Assembly (NCBI GenBank): GCA_903859815.1
Contig: CAIOOA010000026.1
Location: 1-41,253, forward strand
Source of the DNA: an uncultured Methylococcaceae bacterium
GTDB taxonomy: Bacteria > Pseudomonadota > Gammaproteobacteria > Methylococcales > Methylococcaceae
Direction: 5' to 3'
DNA: 41,253 bases
Shown: one piece after another, positions 5,455 to 18,964 of the stretch
Layout of the letters: each line of letters opens with the position of its first letter
Numbering within the stretch: the first letter of the stretch is position 1
Notes under the pieces: model-generated
The model's database searches: none
Told to the model about the DNA's origin: nothing
The model's input: the letters and a program-made list of their open reading frames with translations, nothing else
Position numbers and translations under genes: made by a program

Positions 5455-6170
5455 AACCTATTCAACTGTTTTGGGGGGTTGAACATCCCTGCTCTTATCT
5501 ACCGGGGCGAATCTCACGTTCGGCCTATGTGGACCCCCGTCTAAGGCTGGATGTCGCAACCTATACCACATTGGCTGCACAAGGTTTTCGTCGCAGCGGC
5601 GACTTGGCATACCGGCCTCATTGCCAATCCTGCCAAGCTTGTGTGCCGCTAAGAATCCCCGTGTCACGTTTTTTCCCCAACCGCTCCCAATTGAGAACCC
5701 TGCGAGATAATGCAGATTTGACCATCACACCCAAGCCGGCAGAATACGTTGAAGAACACTATCAACTGTTCCTAAGCTACTTGGCTTCCCGTCACCGCGA
5801 CGGCGGCATGGCAGATTCATCCCCTAATGACTATATCGGATTTTTGGGCAGCGATTGGTCCGACACTTGGTTCGTGGAATTCAGATTGCAAGACAAACTT
5901 GTCAGCATAGCCGTGGTGGATCGGCTTGAGAACGGGCTGTCGGCGGTTTACACTTTTTTTGATCCCAACTATGAAACCCGTGGCTTAGGCACCTTGGCTG
6001 TGCTCTGGCAAATCAAGGAGGCGAAAAACCTAGGGCTTAATTGGCTTTATTTGGGCTTCTGGATCGAGGATTGCCATAAAATGAGCTATAAACACAACTA
6101 CCGCCCTATTGAGGCATTGATCGATGGGCATTGGAGATCATTTGAAAAAGGCGAGAAGATTGGCATGTGA
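5451..6170 (+). CDS. bpt: Aspartate/glutamate leucyltransferase
   Basis: Bpt adds Leu from Leu-tRNA to N-terminal Asp or Glu, feeding acidic secondary N-degrons to ClpS. The 239-residue product has the ATE-type N-terminal cysteine region (C14, and C58, C61, C64 in the CQSCQAC block) followed by the GNAT-like C-terminal half with [13 protein letters not shown] and [21 protein letters not shown] at 5437-5441 precedes the ATG, which overlaps the aat stop (ATGA). The frame stays open upstream through aat, but that part is a shadow of aat. infA follows after 72 bases on the same strand. Confidence 0.95.
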
Positions 6171-6242
6171 TATGTTAATATTAGTGATTGTATTGCCCCA
6201 AGTTAACAAATTGGCAGCCGGTTTATCACATTTCGGAGTTTT

Positions 6243-6461
6243 ATGTCTAAAGAAGATCAGATAGAAATGGAAGGCAAGGTGATCGAAACCTTGCCCAATA
6301 CCACTTTTCGGGTAGAGTTGGACAATGGTCATGTCATCATTGCCCATATTTCCGGTAAGATGCGCAAGCATTACATACGCATCCTGACCGGAGACCGGGT
6401 TAAAGTTGAAATGACCCCTTACGACCTGACCAAGGGAAGAATCACGTTCCGCCAGCGCTGA
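6243..6461 (+). CDS. infA: Translation initiation factor IF-1
   Basis: This 72-residue S1/OB-fold protein has all the usual IF-1 blocks: [51 protein letters not shown] and KGRITFR. IF-1 occupies the ribosomal A site during initiation. A CGGAG about 6 bases before the ATG serves as ribosome binding site. In many betaproteobacteria infA sits between secY and rpmJ; here that slot is empty and infA lies beside the N-degron genes, as in Pseudomonas. It faces clpA tail to tail with only ten bases between the stop codons and no visible terminator. Confidence 0.98.
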
Positions 6462-6471
6462 AGATAGCCCG

Positions 6472-8745
6472 TCAAGCGGTTTCGGGAGTCTTTTCCCGCA
6501 AACTTACGATGGAGAAGGCAAGCTTGTCGTCTTCGACGCTGATTCTCACCATGCCGCCATCGGCCAGCTTCCCAAAGAGTATCTCGTCGGCAAGTGGCTT
6601 CTTGATGTTTTCCTGAATCACTCGCGACATTGGCCTTGCCCCCATCTTGGGGTCGCAGCCATGCACAGCAAGCCATTCCCTTGCGTCGGGTTCTAGCGCA
6701 AGCGACACGCGCTTTTCCGATAGCTGGGATTCCAATTCGAAAATAAACTTGTCCACCACCTGACGGATAATATCCATATTCAACGATTTGAACTGGATGA
6801 TGCCGTCCAAGCGATTGCGGAACTCGGGCGCAAACAAGCGTTCGATGGCCTTCATAGCGTCAGTGGAATTGTCCTGCTGGGTGAATCCTATCGATGGCCG
6901 GTCGGCATCCATTGCACCGGCATTGGTCGTCATGATCAAAACGATATTACGGAAATCCGCCTTGCGGCCGTTATTGTCAGTCAGCGTACCGTGGTCCATG
7001 ACCTGTAGCAGCAAGTTGAACACATCCGGGTGTGCTTTTTCGACCTCATCCAACAACAAAACTGCATGGGGATTCTTAGTCACCGCTTCGGTCAACAATC
7101 CACCTTGGTCAAAACCCACATAGCCCGGCGGTGCGCCAATCAAACGGGAAACAGTATGGCGTTCCATGTATTCCGACATATCGAAGCGAATCAGTTCAAT
7201 CCCCAACACCTTGGCCAACTGCCGACTGACTTCAGTCTTGCCGACCCCCGTTGGACCCGCAAAAAGGAAGGAACCCACTGGCTTTTGGATTTCACGCAAT
7301 CCCGCCCTCGACAATTTGATGGCGGCAGACAATGCAGAAATCGCCTCGTCTTGACCAAAAACCAACATTTTAAGATGCTTTTCCAAATCCTTAAGCTTGT
7401 CCTTATCGTTGGTCGAAATCGTCTTCGGGGGAATGCGAGCAATTTTGGCAACGATATCTTCAATTTCCAAGGTGCCAATTAACTTCTTGCGACGTGAAAC
7501 CGGCATCAACCGCTGACATGCCCCAGCCTCATCAATGACATCTATCGCCTTATCGGGCAAATGCCGATCATTAATGTAACGGTTTGACAATTCAGCAGCC
7601 GTGCGCAAGGCCGACAAGGAATATTTGACATCATGGTGCTGTTCGAAACGTGACTTCAAACCCCTCAGAATCAGATAGGTTTCATCCACACTGGGTTCGG
7701 TGATGTCAATTTTTTGAAATCGCCTTGCCAATGCACGGTCTTTTTCAAACACACCACGAAATTCTTGATAGGTGGTGGAGCCTATGCACCGCATTTCACC
7801 CGAAGCCAGCATCGGTTTAATCAGGTTGGATGCATCCATGACGCCACCGGATGCCGACCCGGCCCCGATAATGGTGTGAATCTCGTCAATGAACAGGATG
7901 GACTGCGGTTCTTTCTTCAACTGTGCCAACAAGGACTTGAGGCGCTTCTCAAAATCGCCGCGATATTTAGTCCCTGCCACCAGCGCCCCCAAGTCAAGCG
8001 CATAAATGACACTGTCCTTGAGAATTTCAGGCACTTCGTTTTCAACGATTTTCTTTGCCAATCCCTCGGCAATGGCGGTCTTGCCCACCCCAGCTTCGCC
8101 AACCAGCAGCGGGTTATTCTTGCGGCGGCGGCAAAGCACTTGGATTGTCCGCTCAACTTCATCCTTTCTGCCAATCAACGGGTCGATCTTGCCCTTTTTT
8201 GCCAACTCGTTCAGATTGGCGGCATATTTTTCCAGCGGATTGCCGGAAGCTCCCGCCTCGCCTTCTTCTCCTTCTGACGAAGCATCCCGCTGGCTACCAT
8301 CGGAATCATCATGCAGCTTGGAAATGCCATGTGAAATGTAATTCACAATATCCAAACGCGAAATGTCCTGCTTACCCAACAAATAAACGGCCTGGGAATC
8401 CTGTTCGCTAAAAATGGCAACCAAAATATTGGCCCCCGTCACTTCCTTCTTGCCTGCGGATTGCACATGGAATGCAGCCCGTTGCAAGACTCGCTGGAAG
8501 CCCAAAGTGGGTTGGGTGTCCCGCTTCACCCCAATCGGGATCAGAGGCGTGGTTTCATAAAGAAACTCCTGCAACTCTTTACGTAACTGGTCGATATTGG
8601 CACCACAGGCATTTAAAACTTCCAACGCAGACTGGTTGTCCAGCATCGAAAGCAATAAATGCTCAACAGTAATGAATTCGTGACGTTTGTCATAAGCCGC
8701 ACGAAATGCAGCGTTCAAGGAAAATTCAAGTTCTTTACTTAACAT
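6472..8745 (-). CDS. clpA: ATP-dependent Clp protease ATP-binding subunit ClpA
   Basis: ClpA is the AAA+ unfoldase that feeds substrates, including N-degron proteins delivered by ClpS, to the ClpP peptidase. The 757 residues match the E. coli length (758). In order: an N domain (1-140), an acidic linker (148-168), the first AAA domain with Walker A GEAGVGKT at 216-223 and Walker B ILFIDE at 283-288, and the second with GPTGVGKT at 497-504 and LLLDE at 563-567. The ClpP-binding loop is IGF at 619-621 where E. coli has IGL. clpP is not in this window. It lies 15 bases after clpS and is probably cotranscribed with it. Confidence 0.98.
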
Positions 8746-8760
8746 GTTAGTCTGCTCCGC

Positions 8761-9081
8761 CTAGGCTTCTTCCATCGTGCATAAAAGAGGGTGTTGATGT
8801 TTGCGTGAAAAGTCGCTCACTTGCTTGACTTTAGTTTCCGCGACATCCCTGGAGAACACCCCGCACACTCCGATGCCACGGGTGTGGACATGAAGCATGA
8901 TTTGGGTGGCCTTTTCCTCGTTCATGCCAAAAAAACTTTTCAGCACTAGAACAACGAAATCCATCGGTGTGAAATCATCATTCAACAAAAGTACCTTGAA
9001 CATAGGTGGCCGCTTTAACTGTGGCCGTGCCTCCTGGACATCAAGCTCGTCATTGAGATTGTGGTCAGGGCTTTGTGACAT
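8761..9081 (-). CDS. clpS: ClpS adaptor for ClpA, N-degron recognin
   Basis: ClpS binds N-terminal Leu, Phe, Tyr or Trp and hands the protein to the ClpA N domain. The 106 residues have a flexible N-terminal tail (1-25) and the folded domain with the specificity pocket residues N34, D35, D36, M40 and H66 at the same numbers as in E. coli. The conserved [17 protein letters not shown] and the [11 protein letters not shown] region are intact. It is first gene of a leftward clpS-clpA pair. With aat and bpt across infA, this makes the whole recognition arm of the bacterial N-degron pathway in 4.4 kb. Confidence 0.98.
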
Positions 9082-9219
9082 CTTAGTTTCTGCCTCTTAA
9101 TCAATTTCAGTTCTAATGTGTCCAATATATCATCGGATGAATGCCTTGTGTAAATACCTTCTGCGGATTCATAACCACATTTTCGTAATAGGACATTCAA
9201 GACCGGAAATGGTTGCCGA

Positions 9220-10248
9220 CTAAAGCCAGCCGGCCCGTTTTAACCGAGCATAAAGCGCCAAACAGGCAACGCATAGGAAGCCGAGGACGATGGGGTAGCT
9301 GTAGGGCCAGTCGAGTTCTGGCATCATTTTAAAATTCATGCCATAAAGGCTAAACACCATCGTCGGCAGTGCCAAAATCGCACCCCAACCCGCCAGACGC
9401 TTCACAATTTCATTTTGCCCCACGGTCACCAAGGCGAGATAAACTTGCATGGCGGCCGTCAACATTTCCCTCATGCCATCAATGGACTGGTTAATTCGCT
9501 TCACGTGGTCTGTGATGTCACGATAATAGAACTGGATGTCCTCACCGATGATGTCGCCATGGAACCGCACCAACTCGTTGCAGATGTCCAACAAAGGAAA
9601 GGTGGCACCCCGCAACAGCAAAAGATCGTGCTTAAGGTCATATAAGTGTTCCAGCGTCTGCTGATTGAAGCGTTCCCTGAACACATCTTCTTCCAAGCGC
9701 TCGAAACGCTCTTGAAGCGCATCGATCACAGGCTTATAGTGGTCAACAATGAAATCAATGATGGCGTAAAGAGCAAAACCCGGCCCTTTAGCCAAGTTAT
9801 CAGGCATGCCTTCGCAGCGTTCCCTGACCTTGCTGAAGCTGAGGGGCGTACCGTGACGAACGGTTACAAGAAATTTAGCGCCTACAAACACGTGGGTCTC
9901 GCCAAATTGCAGCGTGTTGCGGTAAAGTTGGGCAGATTGCAAAACGAGGAACATAGAATCACCGTACTCCTCAAGCTTTGGCCGCTGGTGGGCGCTACGG
10001 GTGTCTTCTATGGCTAGTTCGTGCAACCCAAACTCTTCTTGGATTTTTTCCAGCAACGCCTCGTTAGGCTCTCGCAAACCCATCCAAACAAACGTATCGT
10101 CATGAACAATTGCATCACTGATATTTTCAATGGCAATGTCACCCACGCGCCGACCTCCTGTATAGGCGACACATTTCATGACCATGGCTTGATAGGCTCT
10201 GGAACCCGTTTGCGGGATGCTTGAATTGGATGAGGAAGATTCGTTCAT
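9220..10248 (-). CDS. corA: CorA family magnesium/divalent cation transporter
   Basis: The 342-residue form has a large cytoplasmic N-terminal domain, a long charged helix rich in Glu and Arg, and two C-terminal membrane helices. The signature Y-G-M-N-F ends the first membrane helix, followed by an acidic loop and a second hydrophobic stretch. These features define the pentameric CorA channel for Mg2+. The frame also opens at ATG 10296, with a fair GGAAAG upstream, which would add 16 mostly hydrophobic residues. Since the CorA N-terminus is cytoplasmic I prefer ATG 10248, but this is not certain. It is divergent from dhaK. The substrate could also be Co2+ or Zn2+. Confidence 0.92.
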   Translation of the reverse strand: MNESSSSNSSIPQTGSRAYQAMVMKCVAYTGGRRVGDIAIENISDAIVHDDTFVWMGLREPNEALLEKIQEEFGLHELAIEDTRSAHQRPKLEEYGDSMFLVLQSAQLYRNTLQFGETHVFVGAKFLVTVRHGTPLSFSKVRERCEGMPDNLAKGPGFALYAIIDFIVDHYKPVIDALQERFERLEEDVFRERFNQQTLEHLYDLKHDLLLLRGATFPLLDICNELVRFHGDIIGEDIQFYYRDITDHVKRINQSIDGMREMLTAAMQVYLALVTVGQNEIVKRLAGWGAILALPTMVFSLYGMNFKMMPELDWPYSYPIVLGFLCVACLALYARLKRAGWL

Positions 10249-10393
10249 GGCATTAATCAAACAGAACTGAAGACAAATAGCAATAAGGGCAAGCATAATA
10301 TCAGCTTTCCAACATCAACCATACACATTTAATGGACGCTTAAGCCCTTGCACCACTTGCCAAACCCCATCATAAATTATTGAGGACACTGAC

Positions 10394-11383
10394 ATGAAGA
10401 AATTCATCAATTCCGTAGACAGCCTATTGGACGAAAGCTTGCATGGCTTCGCCCTTGCCCATGGCGACATCGTGCGCTACAACCCCGAACCCCGTTACAT
10501 CGCCCGCTTAAACCCCAAGGCGCAGGGAAAAGTCGCCTTGATCTCAGGGGGTGGCTCCGGGCACGAACCCTTGCACCTCGGGTTCATCGGAACAGGTATG
10601 CTGGATGCCGCCTGTCCCGGACAAGTCTTCACCTCGCCTACCCCGGATCAAATGCTGGCGGCAGCCATGGATGTCGAAACCGGCGGCGGCGTATTGTTCA
10701 TCGTCAAAAACTACGCCGGCGATGTGATGAATTTTGAGATTGCCGGTGAAATGCTGGATTGCCCCAACGCATCGGTGCTAGTGCATGACGATGTGTCCAT
10801 CCCGGAACATCAAGGCATGGGTAGACGTGGGGTCGCCGGAACCACAATTGTCGAAAAGATCGTTGGCGCAGCCGCCGAAGCTGGGTTGAATCTTGACGAG
10901 TGCAAAGCGCTAGGCGAACGAGTGGTTCGAGCCACCGCATCCATGGGTGTGGCATTGACTAGTTGCACCGTCCCCGCCTTGGGCAAACCCACCTTCAACA
11001 TCGCCGACGATGAAATGGAACTCGGCGTGGGCATCCACGGCGAAAAAGGCCGCGAACGGATCGGCTTGCTTAAGGCATCGGAAATCATCGAGCAGCTTGC
11101 CCACACCATCCATGAAGAACTGAAACCCGCCAAGGGGCAAGAAGTCTTGCTGCATGTCAACGGCTTCGGCGCAACGCCGATGATCGAGTTATATCTACTC
11201 TATGATTTGGCTCGCCAATACTGGGATCATCGCGGTGTGGTTGTCACCCGCTCCTTGGTTGGCAATTACACAACCTCATTGGACATGGCCGGCGCGTCCA
11301 TCACTTTAACCTTATTGGATGAGGAACTGACCCGCTATTGGGACGCACCCGTGCATACGGCAGCGTTAAGGTGGGGGTGTTAG
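10394..11383 (+). CDS. dhaK: Dihydroxyacetone kinase, DhaK subunit
   Basis: DhaK binds dihydroxyacetone covalently through a histidine and is phosphorylated with help from DhaL. The 329-residue product has GGGSGHEP at 52-59 (H57), D110 in NYAGDVMNF, and the substrate-binding histidine H215 in GIHGEKG, so the active site looks complete. TGAGGA before the ATG is a good ribosome binding site. No dhaL or dhaM is nearby, and the C-terminal DhaL half of an ATP-dependent single-chain kinase is missing. Either the partners are elsewhere or the protein has another role. It is among the most GC-rich genes of the window and is followed by a possible terminator. Confidence 0.92.
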   Translation: MKKFINSVDSLLDESLHGFALAHGDIVRYNPEPRYIARLNPKAQGKVALISGGGSGHEPLHLGFIGTGMLDAACPGQVFTSPTPDQMLAAAMDVETGGGVLFIVKNYAGDVMNFEIAGEMLDCPNASVLVHDDVSIPEHQGMGRRGVAGTTIVEKIVGAAAEAGLNLDECKALGERVVRATASMGVALTSCTVPALGKPTFNIADDEMELGVGIHGEKGRERIGLLKASEIIEQLAHTIHEELKPAKGQEVLLHVNGFGATPMIELYLLYDLARQYWDHRGVVVTRSLVGNYTTSLDMAGASITLTLLDEELTRYWDAPVHTAALRWGC

Positions 11384-11412
11384 TAACACAAATGATGAGG
11401 CTACTGCTAACC

Positions 11413-11444
11413 GGGCCGTGCCAAACAAGCCGCAAGCTCGGCCC
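11413..11444 (+). terminator. Possible terminator after dhaK
   Basis: GGGCCG (11413-11418) pairs with CGGCCC (11439-11444) across a 20-base loop and is followed by TATGTTTTTG. The stem is short and the loop long, so this is a weak call. Confidence 0.35.
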
Positions 11445-11578
11445 TATGTTTTTGCCGTTATCCATGCACCCGCGTAAAATAAGACAGCAAACTCATAAAG
11501 CGGTCAAGCACTAGCAACCAAATACCAAAAACACATTAGAAAGGAAGCTAAAACCAGCAATTCTCATTATGGCTAAAA

Positions 11579-11650
11579 CGCCGTCATTCCGGCATGGACT
11601 GCCGGAATCCAGTGCCATGGATGGTAACTTGCCGTTGCATAAGTGTCTGA
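11579..11650 (-). repeat. Second copy of the MITE-like repeat arm
   Basis: This is related to 86-157 in opposite orientation: the palindrome at about 11586-11608, then CCAGTGCCATGGATGGTAAC and a shared tail of about 20 more bases. Its palindrome core is identical to the left arm at 21-43. It lies 20 bases before the addiction-module antitoxin, so it may carry or disturb that gene's promoter. The inverse arm is not seen here, so this is a partial element. Confidence 0.65.
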
Positions 11651-11670
11651 AAACCTGACAAGGCTCGAAA

Positions 11671-11895
11671 ATGAACATCTCTGAAATAGAATCAGAAATT
11701 TTTTCACTACCGATTGAACAGAGAGCTAGTTTGGCGCATAAGCTTCTGTTAAGTCTGGAAGAACCGTCCGATGCTGAATTTGAACGGCTATGGGGTGAAG
11801 AAAGCGCCCGTCGTGCCGCTGAATTCGATTCGGGAATGGTTCAGGCGATTCCGGGGGAGGAAGTTGCCGCAAAGGCAAGGGCGTTATTGAGGTGA
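11671..11895 (+). CDS. Addiction module antitoxin (TIGR02574-like)
   Basis: This 74-residue protein fits the putative addiction-module family: the N-terminal helix IEQRASLAHKLLLSLEE, a central R-L-W-G-E-E-S-ARR-AEFDSG, and a C-terminal GEEVAAKARALL. Such proteins pair with a RelE/ParE-type toxin encoded directly after them. Here only the first few toxin codons are visible before a stop (see 11892-11909), so the antitoxin is an orphan. The ribosome binding site is weak (an AAGG about a dozen bases upstream). The MITE-like repeat sits just upstream. Confidence 0.78.
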   Translation: MNISEIESEIFSLPIEQRASLAHKLLLSLEEPSDAEFERLWGEESARRAAEFDSGMVQAIPGEEVAAKARALLR

Positions 11896-11909
11896 ACTAT
11901 AAGTTTTAG
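11892..11909 (+). pseudogene. Start of a lost RelE/ParE-type toxin
   Basis: A GTG overlaps the antitoxin stop (GTGA, 11892-11895), the expected place for the toxin start. It reads V-N-Y-K-F and then TAG. RelE-like partners of this antitoxin family often begin with a similar M-N-Y-K/R-F. After 11909 no frame resembles a toxin, so a deletion or replacement just after codon 5 is likely. The call rests on position and five residues only. Confidence 0.35.
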
Positions 11910-12069
11910 CAAAGCCCATGCAATAGTGGATTCGCAGTATATTGGATCAGAAGCGCAACCTTCTCAGTAAAGTCGCAACATTGCGCGAAACGAACCTACT
12001 GCAAAGCCAAGTAAGGCTTTGAGGGCAGATTGGCAGGGAGCGAAACAACCACCTATCTGCCTGATGTTT

Positions 12070-12285
12070 TTAATGCAGTGGGCTTTCAGATTGGTGTAAA
12101 TCCACTTTGGTTTTCTCCATATCCAACTGAACGCTAATATTATCATAGCCTTGTTCCATTTCACTATCTAATGGATATTTTTCTTTGAGGTAATTAACCA
12201 AACTATCCAAATCGTAAGCGTGTTCTTTGGCTAAGTTATCTTTGATAGACCACAGTTCTTGCAAAGTTTCATCAATCATCTTCAT
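12070..12285 (-). CDS. Small conserved-type protein, antitoxin-like, function unknown
   Basis: The frame encodes 71 residues; a start at the third codon (ATG 12279) is also possible. The pattern W-S-I-K-D-N-L-A-K-E-H-A-Y-D followed by LVNYLKEKYP is familiar from small uncharacterised proteins found near toxin genes and in cyanobacteria and proteobacteria. No DNA-binding motif or membrane segment is seen. The start is preceded by GGGAG on its strand, a good ribosome binding site. A short remnant frame lies upstream (12295-12369). I do not assign a function; antitoxin is a guess from context. Confidence 0.5.
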   Translation of the reverse strand: MKMIDETLQELWSIKDNLAKEHAYDLDSLVNYLKEKYPLDSEMEQGYDNISVQLDMEKTKVDLHQSESPLH

Positions 12286-12294
12286 TAACTCCCA

Positions 12295-12369
12295 TCAGTT
12301 CTTTGGGTGTACAAATAAACGGCAATCTGCGCCAGTATCTCCATGTTCGTAATGTGCCGTTAATTCCAT
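12295..12369 (-). pseudogene. Short HicB-like N-terminal remnant
   Basis: This 24-residue frame begins MELTAHYE, much like the start of HicB antitoxins (M-x-L-T-A-x-Y-E), then departs from the family and stops. A one-base shift before the stop would continue the frame to overlap the start of the next small gene. There is no ribosome binding site. It could equally be a tiny leader frame. Nothing else is recognised between 12370 and 12488. Confidence 0.22.
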
Positions 12370-12488
12370 TTTTAAAAATTAATAATTGATGACCAATGTT
12401 TTAAGGTAAACTTCGCGACTCAATTTAATAGGGAATGTTGAATATTAGACTCAACTTGCGAATAGCTTCAAATAGGGCGTTGAGTTCC

Positions 12489-15400
12489 TCACTCAAACCG
12501 TTCATCCCTTTGCCTTTCTCTTTCCCGTTCTTCCACTCGTCGTTCATCGGCTTCTTGGGCCAATGCATCATCTTGCTTCCGCGCCCAAGTGGCGACTTCG
12601 GGATGGGGGTGATTGAGCAATGATATGGGTAAAGCCCTATAATTTTCCAAAATATCTGCTAATGAGCCACTCCAACAACTCGGCCAAAATTGCTGTTGAT
12701 ATTCAGCCAAAACCAGCGATTTATCCGGTGCCAATTCTAATAGTTTTAATGCAATAGCTGTCCATTCCATATTGCTGGATGCGTCTTGTTTTTGCCAAAT
12801 AGGTATGACTGCTGCAAGCTTAGGAATACGAATATTAGGTTCAACTTGAACCCAAGAAAGCAGTGATTCAATTGGGACTGATTTCAGAGGATTACCGAAA
12901 TTAGGTTCCATATCATGCAGAAACCAAGACCACAAATTATGTGTTTCGCCAGTTAAGAATTCATCCAAAGCGACCTGAGGCTGCATTCGAAATAAGCCTT
13001 CTAAAACTTCACCATATTCATAGGCTATAGAATTAGGTGATTCGATTATCGCCTTTGTAAAATTTTGACAAATTATCTTAGCCTCTAAGGCTGCGGTGTC
13101 GCCTTGCAAACAATCATTAATAAGTTCAGCCAACCCGCATGACTCTGAGGAACCATTATTGTCAAAATTATATTGACAAAGCAATACTCGCCCACATTGT
13201 AAAAGCTCAGGATGAATTGGATTGCAAGCTGATTTTACAGAGTGCAAATGCTTTTGAAGTATATCTATAGCTGTATTCATCCCATCAGGCAAGGATGCAA
13301 TGCCAGAAATGATCTGACTAATTGCACTTGCATCAATTGGAGATTTATTATACTGAAGAGCCCAATAACTCGAAGCAGACGCAATGCCTAGCATTATGCA
13401 TGATTTCAATCGTTCCACACCTATTTCATCTATTTCTATAGATAACTGTAGATATGGAAAATAAGCCCCTAGACTCGGATGATTAAGAATATAATCCAAG
13501 AAATCATCTGCTATTAAAGCATCACGTTCTTTTGCCCCACTGATAAAACCTCCTAATACACTTTCGTTTTTCTCTGTATCGGGAGTTGCAACAAATGCTT
13601 GAATCAAGCGTTCCCATATATCAGCTAACGAGTCTGCCCCTAAAGCCAAGCCACGCCCGAATTCAACACAACGGTAAGATTTACAATGAACAAGCATAGG
13701 CAGTAATTCATCAAGCAAATCTGGTTGGGTGGCTAATTCTTTGCCCAGATTAATGGTGATATTGTGCGTCTTATTAATCGACTTCTCTTCAAATTTAAAT
13801 TCAACATCAACCCCTTGCTCCATCACTTCATCATTAATTGCTATATCGTTCCACATTTCTGAAGAAAGATAGGCATGAGCATTTTGGAGCAAATTGACCG
13901 GATGTAATGCCTTTTCCAAATCACGAAGACGCGATAAAGATTGGGATGGATTTGTTCTGTCATGGTAATAAATGGTGTTTCTGACCGCAAGCCAACCTTC
14001 CGCCCAAAATTGTTGTTCATTGAGTACCATAGCCATAGCCTCTAACTCATCGTACATTCCAGTCTTGATCCACAACCATCTGAATTGTACAGCAAGTATA
14101 GATCGAACTCTTGTTGAATGAAGTGCATCTGACAAAGCCAAATTCTGGCAAAACATAATAACTTCCCAATACCAATGAATAAATTCAGTTGGGTTAGATG
14201 GTTGCCAGCCATAGTTTCGAGAGCGAGCACCAAATGAATAGTCACTTGAACCAGAGAAATGTGCTGCTATTCGTGCTACTATTAATAATGTGTTAAGCGT
14301 TTCCATTGCCAATTCTTGACTTGTTGAATTATCATTTATAAGTAGTTTTTCAACAACTCGCAAACGCTGTTCGACATTGGCATGTGTGCCAGAAAAGCGG
14401 AGTTGGAAAAGACTTTTAAATGAATTTCTCGCTGAATTATAGTTACTCCCATTAGGTTCAGCAATGACGAGTTTAGCCAGCATAATTGCGGCACGATCGA
14501 AATGTTTAGGCTCATAAGCCAGCGATTTCAATATATAAATCCAAGTTCCTCGCCCAACGCTATACATGTTTGACAAATCTACTGCATTATCATAAATAAT
14601 TAAATGCTCAAGTCTTTCCAATATAAACTCAGGTAGCACAGGGGCTATGTTTCGCAACATATCAACGCCCAATTGAGTTAGCTGCCCAATATTTTCTAAA
14701 CATCCTTGTGGCGATAACCATCCTCGTACTATTTTCTGTGCTTCCTCGCTATCATGTAGATACCCTAAGCGGCGCGAGAATGAGCGTAGCAATCGACCGG
14801 AAGAGACTTGCCATATGGTCTCTTCAATTCGCAGTAGCGGGAAGTCTTCCAACGCACGACGAGCGAGCCAGATTGCTAATGCTTGGGGCAATACTGCTCG
14901 CCATTGACCACGGCATTGAACAAGCTGGCGGCGTTTAAGCTCTGCTACATAGCCGAACAGTTGATCCGTCGTCATCCCGGCAAGATTAGCCAATAAGGGT
15001 AACTCGCCTTCTTCACCTTGCAAGGTCTCGCCGTCGAATGAGTACACTAGGGAGCAAACTTCGGCAGCTTTTAGCAGATTTTCGTCTTTGTCTTTTCCTT
15101 GATGAAATAACCGTTTGAATAATTCGTTATCGGTGAGTTTGGCAACGCTTTCACCCTGTTTTACAGTATTGGCAAGCGCCAAAGCCAATTTGGCATTACC
15201 ACCTGAAAGCTCGGCCATGCGCCGACGATCCACTTGCGAGGTTTGAGGCATCCGCTGTTCAAGTAAACGCTCGATTAGTTCATGCGTTGATGGTTCAAGT
15301 CGATAAACCTCGGTTTTTTCGGGTTCGTCTTCGCCTACATCATATTCCACGCTGATTAGGCTTAATGTGCTATGAGTTTCAGCGCAAATTGTAGTCAATG

Positions 15401-16328
15401 ATCGGTGGGTTTCTGGCAGACAATTGTCCACGATAAGGATGGCTCGTTGCCTGTTGTTAATAAGATGGCACATCAAGTTCTTAGGCGAGGGATCAGGTTC
15501 ATCCGCTATATCCGTGTACAAAGCCAGTTCGGTAGGCAAGGCGTTTGAGCCAATGCGAGCATCAAACAGCGCTTGGACTAAGCGGGTTTTCCCCGTCCCG
15601 GATAATCCGACAAGCCGAACCACGCCTTTGGGTTTGTCCAGTATTTCGCGGATGCGCTGAATCCCATGTTCAACTGACAAACCGCCTTCTTGTGAATGAC
15701 CGTCATGCAGTCTGCATTGCTCATCCAATAAATATTCTGCCTCAATAGGCTCATCTGATTTGGGCCAATCGTCACCATAAACTTGCCAACCTGAGAAGGG
15801 TTCTCCAATTTGTTCCCGCACCCAAGCGACTACGCCGGGATGCGCCCTAACCCAAGTGGCTAAGCGTGATTGGTCATAAAAATCTAGGGTAAGGATTTCA
15901 GCGTTGGGAATATCTATCACAGCATCGCGCATGGCTTTGCGGCGATCATTTTCTAGTGGTTCATCAGAAGTGTTGTCTTTACTGCTAGCGATAATATATG
16001 CGCCACCCACTTTTGCTAATTCATACAATACGTTTCGTGCCTCGCCTTTTGGACGCATTTCCTTCAAGATTTTCCCGCGTGGCATTTCAGAAGCTTTGCT
16101 TTGAAAAACCGTATTGGGGCAGAGAATGAAATCTGTTTTTGGGTTTGTAGAGGTAAGTTGGACACGTACATCGACACCACCATCCTTCGCATCTTGATTA
16201 CCTCCTGCCGTCACAGCAGATAACGGAAGCCCTGCTTGCCGCAATTCGGCTTCACATAGACGGACGATGAGTGTGCGTAGATCGGTATCGTTCAGTTTGG
16301 CAATGTGTGAACCTTCAATTTCAAACAT
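12489..16328 (-). CDS. Nuclease-STAND NTPase fusion, candidate anti-phage protein
   Basis: The 1279-residue protein has three parts. Residues 1-120 look like a PD-(D/E)xK nuclease: an N-terminal helix with E26/E28, then GGNQDAKDGGVDVRV (D49 or D53) and a strand with Q76-S-K78. Residues about 215-400 are a STAND-type P-loop ATPase: Walker A GLSGTGKTR at 241-249, Walker B AILIVDN at 296-302, and a GGNAKLALAL block at 376-385 like the GGxPLAL motif of STAND proteins. Residues 420-1279 are long, helical and Leu/Trp-rich, a likely TPR- or HEAT-like sensor, ending in a charged Glu/Arg tail. The architecture matches the Avs-like class of phage sensors, but I cannot name a subtype. It has no visible partner gene and is flanked by toxin-antitoxin debris and repeats. 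The defence role is inference. Confidence 0.72.
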   Translation of the reverse strand: MFEIEGSHIAKLNDTDLRTLIVRLCEAELRQAGLPLSAVTAGGNQDAKDGGVDVRVQLTSTNPKTDFILCPNTVFQSKASEMPRGKILKEMRPKGEARNVLYELAKVGGAYIIASSKDNTSDEPLENDRRKAMRDAVIDIPNAEILTLDFYDQSRLATWVRAHPGVVAWVREQIGEPFSGWQVYGDDWPKSDEPIEAEYLLDEQCRLHDGHSQEGGLSVEHGIQRIREILDKPKGVVRLVGLSGTGKTRLVQALFDARIGSNALPTELALYTDIADEPDPSPKNLMCHLINNRQRAILIVDNCLPETHRSLTTICAETHSTLSLISVEYDVGEDEPEKTEVYRLEPSTHELIERLLEQRMPQTSQVDRRRMAELSGGNAKLALALANTVKQGESVAKLTDNELFKRLFHQGKDKDENLLKAAEVCSLVYSFDGETLQGEEGELPLLANLAGMTTDQLFGYVAELKRRQLVQCRGQWRAVLPQALAIWLARRALEDFPLLRIEETIWQVSSGRLLRSFSRRLGYLHDSEEAQKIVRGWLSPQGCLENIGQLTQLGVDMLRNIAPVLPEFILERLEHLIIYDNAVDLSNMYSVGRGTWIYILKSLAYEPKHFDRAAIMLAKLVIAEPNGSNYNSARNSFKSLFQLRFSGTHANVEQRLRVVEKLLINDNSTSQELAMETLNTLLIVARIAAHFSGSSDYSFGARSRNYGWQPSNPTEFIHWYWEVIMFCQNLALSDALHSTRVRSILAVQFRWLWIKTGMYDELEAMAMVLNEQQFWAEGWLAVRNTIYYHDRTNPSQSLSRLRDLEKALHPVNLLQNAHAYLSSEMWNDIAINDEVMEQGVDVEFKFEEKSINKTHNITINLGKELATQPDLLDELLPMLVHCKSYRCVEFGRGLALGADSLADIWERLIQAFVATPDTEKNESVLGGFISGAKERDALIADDFLDYILNHPSLGAYFPYLQLSIEIDEIGVERLKSCIMLGIASASSYWALQYNKSPIDASAISQIISGIASLPDGMNTAIDILQKHLHSVKSACNPIHPELLQCGRVLLCQYNFDNNGSSESCGLAELINDCLQGDTAALEAKIICQNFTKAIIESPNSIAYEYGEVLEGLFRMQPQVALDEFLTGETHNLWSWFLHDMEPNFGNPLKSVPIESLLSWVQVEPNIRIPKLAAVIPIWQKQDASSNMEWTAIALKLLELAPDKSLVLAEYQQQFWPSCWSGSLADILENYRALPISLLNHPHPEVATWARKQDDALAQEADERRVEERERERQRDERFE

Positions 16329-16379: not shown

Positions 16380-16702
16380 GATCGTTCCCACGCTCTAGCG
16401 TCTCTGCTATTAAGTTAGTCCGTTCATGGTGAGCCTGTCGAATCATGATTGGCTGGATGTCCAATAAGTTGGATTTTTTCTATCCACCCCTCGACATGCA
16501 AACAAGAAAACCTTAACCTAATGTCAGTGACAACGAAGTTTGATCGTTCCCACCCTCCATCACTGCCATTAAGTTAGCGTTCGTAGCCCCGCCTTTAGGC
16601 GGCGAACTGACTGGAAAGAATCGGCTGAAGCCGGGACCACAAACGGTTTTGACATGCGCAAATTCCTTAACTTAATGGTAGTGACGCTCCAACGTGGGAA
16701 TG
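16380..16702. repeat. Cluster of dispersed inverted repeats
   Basis: Two direct copies of a unit that starts GATCGTTCCCAC and ends in a TTAAGTTAG motif lie at 16380-16418 and 16542-16578. An inverted copy lies at about 16667-16702 and a partial inverted one at 16512-16535. The outer pair 16542-16578 and 16667-16702 bounds a 160-base MITE-like block holding a CCGCC/GGCGG hairpin at about 16589-16602 and a CGGCTGAAGCCG palindrome at about 16622-16634. A CCGTTCATG palindrome at 16420-16447 belongs to the family seen again near 18.8 kb. The 411-base gap 16330-16740 holds nothing else. The cluster separates the STAND gene from the VapBC-type pair. Confidence 0.65.
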
Positions 16703-16740
16703 CCAACAAGTACGCTCCAGCGTCCAAGAGGAATTCAATA

Positions 16741-16971
16741 ATGTTACAAGACCAACTCATTGAAGAAATCAAACAAATCCCGCCAGACAAGCTGGCTGAA
16801 CTATATTCCCTTGTGCATTATTACCGCTTAGGCTTGGCAAATGAGAGGCAAAAGCTTAAGCTTACGGCAAAACGCCCAATCGGTTTGGCAAAAGGGACAT
16901 TCCAAGTGCCACCCAGCTTCTTTGAACCTTTGCCTGAGGAAATATTGGATGCGTTTGAAGGTAGCAAATGA
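16741..16971 (+). CDS. DUF2281 family antitoxin (VapB-like)
   Basis: This 76-residue protein has the DUF2281 pattern: an N-terminal helix ending in IPPDKLAELYSLVHYY, a linker, and a C-terminal segment with LPEEILDAFEG that in this family plugs the toxin active site. The ATG at 16741 follows AGAGGA with good spacing; the frame is open back to 16654, but that part lies in repeat DNA. Its stop overlaps the toxin start by four bases (ATGA 16968-16971), typical for VapBC-like operons. It likely represses its own promoter, which must lie within or just after the repeat cluster. Confidence 0.85.
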   Translation: MLQDQLIEEIKQIPPDKLAELYSLVHYYRLGLANERQKLKLTAKRPIGLAKGTFQVPPSFFEPLPEEILDAFEGSK

Positions 16972-17354
16972 AGCTTCTATTGGATACTTGCACCTTCTTG
17001 TGGTTTACAACCGACGACCCGGAATTAAGCCATACTGCCAAGCTGATGTTCCAAGACGAACACAATGTAGTTTATCTAAGCAGTGTCTCCGCATGGGAGA
17101 TTATGGTAAAGAATGGATTAGGCAAATTACCTTTACCTGATAAGGCAGATAGCTTTATCCAGCAACAATGCAAAAACCATTTCATTGAAACCTTGCCATT
17201 AGAAACCAAGGCAGTTTTTCATTTACGGCTTCTACCAAACCATCATCGTGACCCATTCGACAGGATGCTGATTTGCCAAGCGATTGAACATGATTTGACT
17301 ATTTTGACCAATGACGAGATGATCGTCAAATATCCGGTTAGCACTATTTGGTAG
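16968..17354 (+). CDS. VapC-like PIN domain toxin
   Basis: This 128-residue protein is an apparently intact PIN-domain ribonuclease. The acidic site is D6 (MKLLLDTCTFLW), E44 (SAWEI), D95/D98 (HRDPFDRML) and D116 (LTNDE). It belongs to the subgroup starting MKLLLDT-x-TFLW that pairs with DUF2281 or Phd-like antitoxins. VapC toxins cleave tRNA or rRNA until bound by their antitoxin. The Cys at position 8 replaces the usual His of this subgroup. It overlaps its antitoxin gene. A small gene of unknown function follows after 53 bases. Of the toxin-antitoxin loci in the window, this is the only one that looks complete. Confidence 0.92.
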   Translation: MKLLLDTCTFLWFTTDDPELSHTAKLMFQDEHNVVYLSSVSAWEIMVKNGLGKLPLPDKADSFIQQQCKNHFIETLPLETKAVFHLRLLPNHHRDPFDRMLICQAIEHDLTILTNDEMIVKYPVSTIW

Positions 17355-18742: not shown

Positions 18743-18817
18743 TCTTATTATCTGTCATGCATTACCCCCCCCATTTTGAATAGAAATGCGGGGTTAGGCT
18801 AGTTGCTGTTGATTTTA

Positions 18818-18909
18818 GCCGTTCATGCTTACTGTCGAAGCATGAACGGCCTAAGCCTACGCTAAGTTGCGATTTTCCGTTTACCCTTCGTCAAGCTCAG
18901 GGCGAACGG
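18818..18909. repeat. Two CCGTT-type palindromes
   Basis: The first is a perfect 13-base stem GCCGTTCATGCTT/AAGCATGAACGGC at 18818-18850 with a 7-base loop. The second, at 18877-18909, pairs CCGTT..CCCT with AGGG..AACGG around TCGTCAAGCTC. A third relative lies at 16420-16447. Both lie between convergent genes (the fibronectin protein and the SGNH gene) and could act as bidirectional terminators or transcript ends, though neither has a T run. They look like REP-type dispersed units. Confidence 0.7.
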
Positions 18910-18964
18910 AATTGATCAATTTTTTTGAAGAACACAACATCGAACAACTCTTATGTTATTTCTC

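Follow-up and report, generated by a model that had tools for sequence, protein, structure and literature searches.

What does the single long gene at positions 12489-16328 of this 41,253-nucleotide stretch from an uncultured Methylococcaceae bacterium (contig CAIOOA010000026.1 of assembly GCA_903859815.1; the whole stretch is called the window below) encode, and what might it do for its host? An earlier annotation made from the letters alone, here called the original prediction, read its 1279-residue product as a nuclease fused to a STAND-type ATPase and a long run of helical repeats, and proposed a phage sensor contained in one gene. Our analysis leads to an answer with a family name attached: the window gene is probably a PD-Lambda-4_A member that acts against phage as sensor and effector in one gene, the defensive role of this particular copy being extended to it from its relatives. 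It is a stand-alone member of a named, little-studied family of bacterial anti-virus proteins, each of which seems to unite in one chain an end that cuts DNA, a switch driven by ATP and a long arm for sensing.

The window gene encodes a full-length PD-Lambda-4_A protein

The gene is an intact open reading frame (ORF) on the minus strand (the original prediction gave no strand), with an ATG start, 1279 codons and no internal stop; the plus strand across the same positions carries many stops. It has one match in its own genome (5.8 Mb in 315 contigs). The nearest named relative, from a metagenome-assembled uncultured Methylococcaceae bacterium, is cut by a contig end and shows 91% identity over 905 residues. 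Comparison with a close relative over 899 codons gave a ratio of nonsynonymous to synonymous substitution rates (dN/dS) of 0.25, and the gene is therefore under purifying selection. Conservation was read from two alignments, one of 17 sequences (the window protein and 16 homologues) and one of 18 rows (the window and 17 rows from related loci) covering the first 560 residues. All 17 sequences of the first alignment matched the PADLOC model PD-Lambda-4_A which, together with the dN/dS value, indicates that the window ORF is not a chance ORF.

The PADLOC model PDLC03991 (PD-Lambda-4_A) was matched with 1057 bits, residues 1-1279 of 1279 aligning with model positions 3-1283 of 1283, and two shorter PD-Lambda-4_A models matched the protein in part. 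This full-length match led us to reject an unknown subtype, which the original prediction had left it as: the family is named and has an experimental precedent in PD-λ-4 of Escherichia coli, whose A protein (locus L023; L-numbers are our own locus handles) has 1283 residues, the length of the PADLOC model, and scored 2531 bits. The PADLOC database includes AVAST models, and none of these was among the PADLOC matches of the window protein at E up to 1, which comprised PD-Lambda-4_A models only, a comparison made by way of family models. Searches with Pfam and NCBIfam returned weak matches, mostly to P-loop families, and a direct search of PDB sequences with the window protein gave no match.

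A review table credits PD-λ-4, in the part of the source accessible to us, to Vassallo et al. 2022 and places it under P-loop NTPase, not in its PD-(D/E)xK row (PMC10952713). According to the accessible text of that study, 21 systems were each cloned and each lowered phage plating (PMC9519451); the name PD-λ-4 is not printed in that portion of its text. The accessible part of a Citrobacter paper has PD-λ-4 among predicted systems. In the open literature (subscription journals, figures and supplements lay outside the search) we found no description of the PD-λ-4 mechanism, and within the same limits both the nuclease assignment and the solitary state of PD-Lambda-4_A appear to be undescribed. 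The domain analysis below now predicts for PD-λ-4 subunit A a nuclease as effector, a STAND module as switch and a solenoid as sensor.

The N-terminal domain looks like an Mrr-type nuclease

The first 175 residues resemble PD-(D/E)xK nucleases of the Mrr type, a likeness from which nuclease activity would be expected. In the 17-sequence alignment D49, G50, G51, D53, Q76, K78 and E90 were invariant. In the 18-row alignment Q76, K78 and E90 were present in 18/18 rows and D49, G51 and D53 in 17/17, the remaining row beginning only after these positions, and G50 varied in 3 rows. The predicted structure of residues 1-560 (mean predicted local distance difference test score, pLDDT, of 84.5) gives residues 1-175 as an alpha/beta domain in which a helix precedes three strands, and further helices precede another two; strand 54-57 comes directly after D53, and strand 72-78 includes Q76-x-K78. 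We read this order as that expected of a PD-(D/E)xK core and, judged by model and profile, a catalytic D and an (E/Q)xK motif lie on neighbouring core strands.

Because the direct Pfam search gave no nuclease family (none was among the best 25 of the 27 families listed for 17 family members), we compared profiles with hhalign, matching a 32-sequence alignment of the nuclease region to a set of 16 Mrr_cat relatives found in related genomes. These relatives were distinct ORF pieces from a search baited with L087 (E up to 0.01, 26 loci), the remainder of which was dropped. This single comparison gave a probability of 90.4% (E = 1.4e-6) and lined up the DGGxD and QxK motifs of the two sets, compared with at most 1.7% for 30 column shuffles and less than 0.5% for three other protein regions. 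Profile searches of PDB sequences yielded nothing stronger than E 0.0057; these weak matches were chiefly to P-loop or ABC proteins, included the plant NLR Roq1 (E 0.032 and 0.1) and contained no nuclease. The PD-(D/E)xK-like N-terminus picked out in the original prediction at D49/D53 and Q76-x-K78 is thereby supported by conserved residues, modelled topology and profile match, and the absence of a nuclease fold, on which that prediction was to fall, is not what the model shows.

A STAND-type NTPase module and a helical arm complete the protein

According to the model, residues ~190-500 form a STAND/NLR-type nucleoside triphosphatase (NTPase). Within its Walker A motif G241, S243, G244, G246, K247, T248 and R249 were invariant in the 17-sequence alignment; in the 18-row alignment K247 was kept in 18/18 rows and T248 was replaced by Ser in 2/18. 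The triplet D301-N302-C303 was invariant in both alignments (17 sequences; 18/18 rows), and G377 was invariant and N378 nearly so among the 17 sequences. The top Foldseek match of residues 1-560 was Avs4 bound to a phage portal (PDB 8dgf; E 8.7e-9), followed by the STAND-TPR protein 6mfv and the NRC2 resistosome, and then by ORC, clamp loaders and RuvB. Fold comparison with VIA over about residues 184-560 gave NLRC4 a Z of 13.5 (root-mean-square deviation 5.0, 321 residues aligned) and Apaf-1 a Z of 13.4. With a conserved Walker A and STAND proteins as the best fold matches, the module belongs among P-loop NTPases of NB-ARC/NACHT-type fold, in agreement with the ATPase proposed at first.

The remainder of the chain is almost entirely helical, as had been anticipated. 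A second model, of residues 470-1279 (mean pLDDT 82.6), contains 43 helices and two strand segments of 2 residues each. It overlaps the first model near residues 470-495, where the two disagree, the first predicting strands and the second, which starts at residue 470, giving 473-495 as helix, partly at low confidence. The best Foldseek matches of the arm were HEAT superhelices such as CAND1, importin beta and transportin (E 5.5e-5 to 1e-3), and we tentatively regard the C-terminal arm as most like HEAT solenoids. Nuclease, STAND NTPase and helical solenoid thus follow one another in one chain, the Avs-like layout that the original prediction had recognised.

Several findings weigh against this assignment of domains and family. 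Pfam listed no Mrr or STAND model for the window protein at E up to 1, and its nSTAND1 model matched 1/17 family members (E 0.018). The VIA comparison barely covered residues 1-175. AAA+ clamp loaders (VIA Z about 12, compared with 13.5), ORC and RuvB score near the STAND matches, and among the matches listed the whole-model TM-scores are as low as 0.23-0.32 over the query. The case for HEAT depends on VIA Z values of about 10 (maximum 10.8), below the level that is telling for helical repeats, and is worded tentatively because such values may reflect a common helix arrangement only. Finally, the window protein shares only 32-33% identity with the E. coli A protein.

The domain composition also bears on a different explanation, in which the protein would act as a restriction-like enzyme of type IV: it would recognise DNA (modified phage DNA, for example) and not a phage protein, and the STAND module would serve as its motor or regulator. 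Its nuclease domain is Mrr-like by hhalign, and modified DNA is what Mrr enzymes restrict. Among the systems of the E. coli selection, according to the accessible text, 11 have a part that putatively binds or cleaves DNA, and 7 of these acted by direct immunity and not by abortive infection (PMC9519451). However, a long helical solenoid would suit protein binding, Foldseek ranks an Avs4 bound to a portal protein first for residues 1-560, and the Pfam scan of the C-terminal part found no credible DNA-binding family, a SWIRM match at residues 761-823 (E 0.059) falling below the cut-off. We give this explanation little credence and prefer a sensor of phage protein.

Loci with both A and B fall in one small subclade

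The E. coli PD-λ-4 locus consists of two genes, A and B, each with a PADLOC model of its own, and the published definition of PD-λ-4 requires both. These facts raise the alternative that the window gene is half of a two-gene system, B having been lost or lying unrecognised elsewhere, and that this copy is either inactive or dependent on a partner that is not linked to it. B lies 46 bases downstream of A in three loci of E. coli type, L023, L024 and L048 (544 bits against PD-Lambda-4_B in L023), and a tblastn hunt through the window and 60 loci found B beside A in these three only. Neighbours were analysed at 37 chosen A loci, a choice without the loci that duplicate the window (L001, L010, L025) and without matches that were broken, partial or distant (L012-L022, L026, L034, L035, L037-L043). 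In 32/37 at least 1000 bases could be seen downstream of A, and B was present in 3 of these and absent from 29. One further locus, L059, is also of E. coli type, with 99.9% identity in A, but its stretch ends 48 bases past the ORF, too soon to show B.

In the window, B does not stand next to A. Its model matched none of the 10 neighbouring window ORFs, and the best tblastn match in the window spanned 22 residues (E 3.9). Searching the whole genome with the B model was likewise negative, the E. coli control being positive. Since the E. coli system includes B, its absence here is a point against the single-gene reading; the negative also speaks against a B partner elsewhere in the genome. By the two-gene definition the window copy is a B-less family member, not a complete PD-λ-4 system. 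Across the phylum the B model matched in 4/398 genomes: one match is L113, where A lies beside B, another is L114, where B occurs without A in a 3.9 kb stretch, and two are partial or weak. At L113 the A part is 56% and B 66% identical to those of E. coli. The pair has thus been kept over some divergence and B matters at least in this second lineage, a further point against a self-sufficient A.

The phylogeny places these cases together. A tree of 31 A proteins joins L023 and L048, the two rows with B, as a tip pair. They sit within a set of 9 rows (100/100), in the rest of which B is not seen (L051 has only 301 bases downstream), and the window protein falls in a different part, a 7-row set (100/99). 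A quick tree of the C-terminal part groups L113 with L055, L023 and L048 (support 0.94), and L055 carries GajA and GajB after A instead of B. All loci with both genes therefore lie in one small subclade far from the window, which also holds the B-less L055: B belongs to this subclade and is not a general partner of A, although it is probably a true accessory there, kept over some divergence.

Relatives of B also occur without A in the stretches examined at L061, L062 and L114; B relatives of this kind include one on a Pseudomonas aeruginosa plasmid (12.7 kb stretch) and one on a Rhodococcus plasmid (6.0 kb stretch). On the former (L061, positions 6001-6912) the B relative adjoins genes annotated SAVED, nucleotidyltransferase, ThiF and Mov34/MPN, which we read as CBASS-type, and a 3'-5' exonuclease; B may serve several defence systems.

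A hidden partner gene was rejected as well, since no neighbour recurs beside A across lineages: in an all-against-all comparison of ORFs of at least 50 residues within 4 kb of A, no family occurred in more than 4 of the 37 loci. The families found in 3-4 loci, among the 25 largest listed, were mostly copies of the E. coli-type stretch or, by our labels, transposase- or recombinase-like. A B diverged beyond recognition may exist, but no recurring neighbour points to one. The 71-residue ORF at 12070-12285, just downstream of the window gene, had no Pfam or PADLOC match at the limits used. The absence of an adjacent partner noted in the original prediction was thus upheld. With these results and the purifying selection on the window gene, we judge the half-system explanation improbable and retain that of a single-gene sensor-effector. 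A occurs mostly without B among the loci examined. According to its accessible text, the E. coli survey counted as homologues only loci encoding all components (PMC9519451), so solitary A genes would have gone uncounted.

Two observations concern other A loci. At L044 the ORF immediately upstream of A (positions 625-2067) matches the PADLOC candidate family PDC-S31 (5.9e-20). Some A homologues are split over reading frames or contigs (L007, L034/L043, L035, L012/L022), of which some are probably broken copies and some perhaps assembly breaks.

The family is patchily distributed and mobile

Relatives of the window protein were found in 2/7 genus genomes, 18/301 order genomes (5 of them with short or weak matches only) and 13/369 class genomes (several distant or partial), counts that include its own genome where it belongs. 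Relatives missing from draft genomes may partly reflect assembly gaps. Among 72,556 plasmid records 40 held a relative, with 21 covering 80% of the query, and 17 loci lay in viral contigs; 50,697 phage records held none. The window gene had no match in a DNA search of E. coli, and an Enterobacter homologue used in the same way showed partial similarity in 175/5426 E. coli genomes, in none of them over more than 80% of the query. A PHROGs scan of 10 neighbour ORFs from 7 viral-contig loci found phage genes at 4/7, namely tape measure and portal at L052, terminase at L044 and integrase at L055 and L058, and nothing telling at L050, L054 and L057. In L052 and L044, A lies within about 3-4.5 kb of the portal or terminase genes. 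The family distribution is patchy and mobile.

This distribution speaks against a STAND protein with a non-defence or housekeeping function. Such a function would fit the several housekeeping genes nearby and the fact that a defensive role reaches this copy by way of its relatives. The gene is nonetheless patchy in genus, order and class, occurs on plasmids and viral contigs and belongs to a named anti-phage family. The CorA-Dak1 sequence next to it is present in 7/7 genus genomes, compared with 2/7 for A. Homologues conserved in synteny as housekeeping genes, the second outcome on which the original prediction was to fall, did not emerge, and we rejected a housekeeping gene; we consider either function, housekeeping or other than defence, very improbable. 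The PADLOC match supports the likely defence role first proposed.

On one viral contig (L055, positions 6001-15722) the genes after PD-Lambda-4_A are GajA, GajB and an integrase, and together they make up a small, mobile island of defence genes.

Likeness to known systems and a working model

Compared to PD-λ-4 of E. coli, the window protein is homologous to subunit A over its full length and has the same conserved nuclease and NTPase residues, but the 248-residue B of that locus is missing from the window locus and genome. Relative to Mrr restriction endonucleases, with whose motifs its own align, it differs in the fusion of the domain to STAND and solenoid parts. It resembles STAND/NLR proteins (Apaf-1, NLRC4, NRC resistosomes, 6mfv) in NTPase fold and domain order, although its N-terminal effector is a predicted nuclease and its sensor is neither LRR nor WD40, the sensors of eukaryotic STAND/NLR proteins. 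In Avs1-4 (AVAST), as in the window protein, a single chain carries first a nuclease, then a STAND NTPase and then a helical sensor; however, the sensor arms of Avs1-4 are TPR-like, unlike the apparently HEAT-like solenoid of the window protein. It most likely works in an Avs-like manner, and PADLOC gave no AVAST match that would make it an Avs type.

According to the accessible text of one source, the nuclease effectors of Avs1-4 cleave phage and host genomes upon recognising terminase, portal or another phage protein (PMC12931631). Our working model, including its phage-protein trigger, is built on this analogy, and we infer every step after the domain assignment. In the resting state, the STAND module together with the HEAT-like solenoid at the C-terminus would keep the protein inactive. 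A phage protein bound by the solenoid would bring about nucleotide exchange and oligomerisation of the STAND module, the oligomer would pair the N-terminal Mrr-like nuclease domains so that DNA is cut, and this cutting would stop the phage or kill the infected cell.

The Avs trigger should be copied with caution, because the type of solenoid may differ and because viral contigs with a portal or terminase of their own carry A. The trigger may accordingly differ from that of Avs, and the portal and terminase versions in L052 and L044 would not be strong triggers if co-expressed with A. We also put forward, as a doubtful extension, a wider view of the family. PD-Lambda-4_A would form the core of a branch of bacterial NLR-like sensors that is widespread and in most cases encoded by one gene, its members having an Mrr-like nuclease and an arm of HEAT and not TPR type; B would be limited to one small subclade, and the trigger would probably not be simply portal or terminase.

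Surroundings of the gene in the window

The window gene is flanked by CorA/Dak1 and by a pair of DUF2281-like and PIN-domain genes, with dispersed repeats on both sides (Table 1).

Table 1. Features of the window gene, its product and its surroundings, with window coordinates.
Feature	Coordinates	Strand	Basis and remarks
PD-Lambda-4_A-type protein, single gene	12489..16328	minus	1279 aa ORF; PADLOC PDLC03991 match
Predicted Mrr-like PD-(D/E)xK nuclease domain, residues 1-175	15804..16328	minus	D49, D53, Q76-x-K78, E90; model topology; hhalign
STAND/NLR-type P-loop NTPase, residues 195-400	15129..15746	minus	Foldseek and VIA fold matches
Walker A GLSGTGKTR, residues 241-249	15582..15608	minus	conserved in alignments
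DNC, Walker B-like (our label), residues 301-303	15420..15428	minus	invariant; end of strand 296-301
Helical then winged-helix-like (our reading) STAND part, residues 400-500	14829..15131	minus	helices 442-450 and 454-466, strands 470-473 and 476-479 (1-560 model)
Alpha-solenoid, HEAT-like, presumed sensor, residues 500-1279	12492..14831	minus	near all-helical model; Foldseek; VIA
Shedu-like ORF, 460 aa, TTG start as listed	810-2192	plus	SduA_C Pfam 2.7e-17; PADLOC SduA 1.5e-12
DUF2281-like and PIN-domain pair	16654-17354	plus, divergent from gene	Pfam; DUF2281 match below cut-off
Antitoxin-like ORF, no toxin recognised beside it	11671-11895
DUF433 ORF, then 51-aa ORF	120-479, 476-631	plus	51-aa ORF resembles a truncated toxin partner (our reading)
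Short dispersed repeats	about 11550-11659, 16539-16703, 18804-18911		many copies in genome and genus

The surroundings had been described as a defence island with orphan antitoxins, and both descriptions held in part. The antitoxin-like ORF downstream of the gene has no recognised toxin next to it, whereas the DUF2281-like and PIN-domain pair is a probable toxin-antitoxin module. The Shedu-like gene, about 10 kb off, is a candidate for a second defence gene and, with the dispersed repeats, speaks weakly for an island, since housekeeping genes lie nearby as well, CorA and Dak1 according to Pfam, and ArgG, IlvE and GlnE by our reading. The contigs of relatives end in these dispersed repeats.

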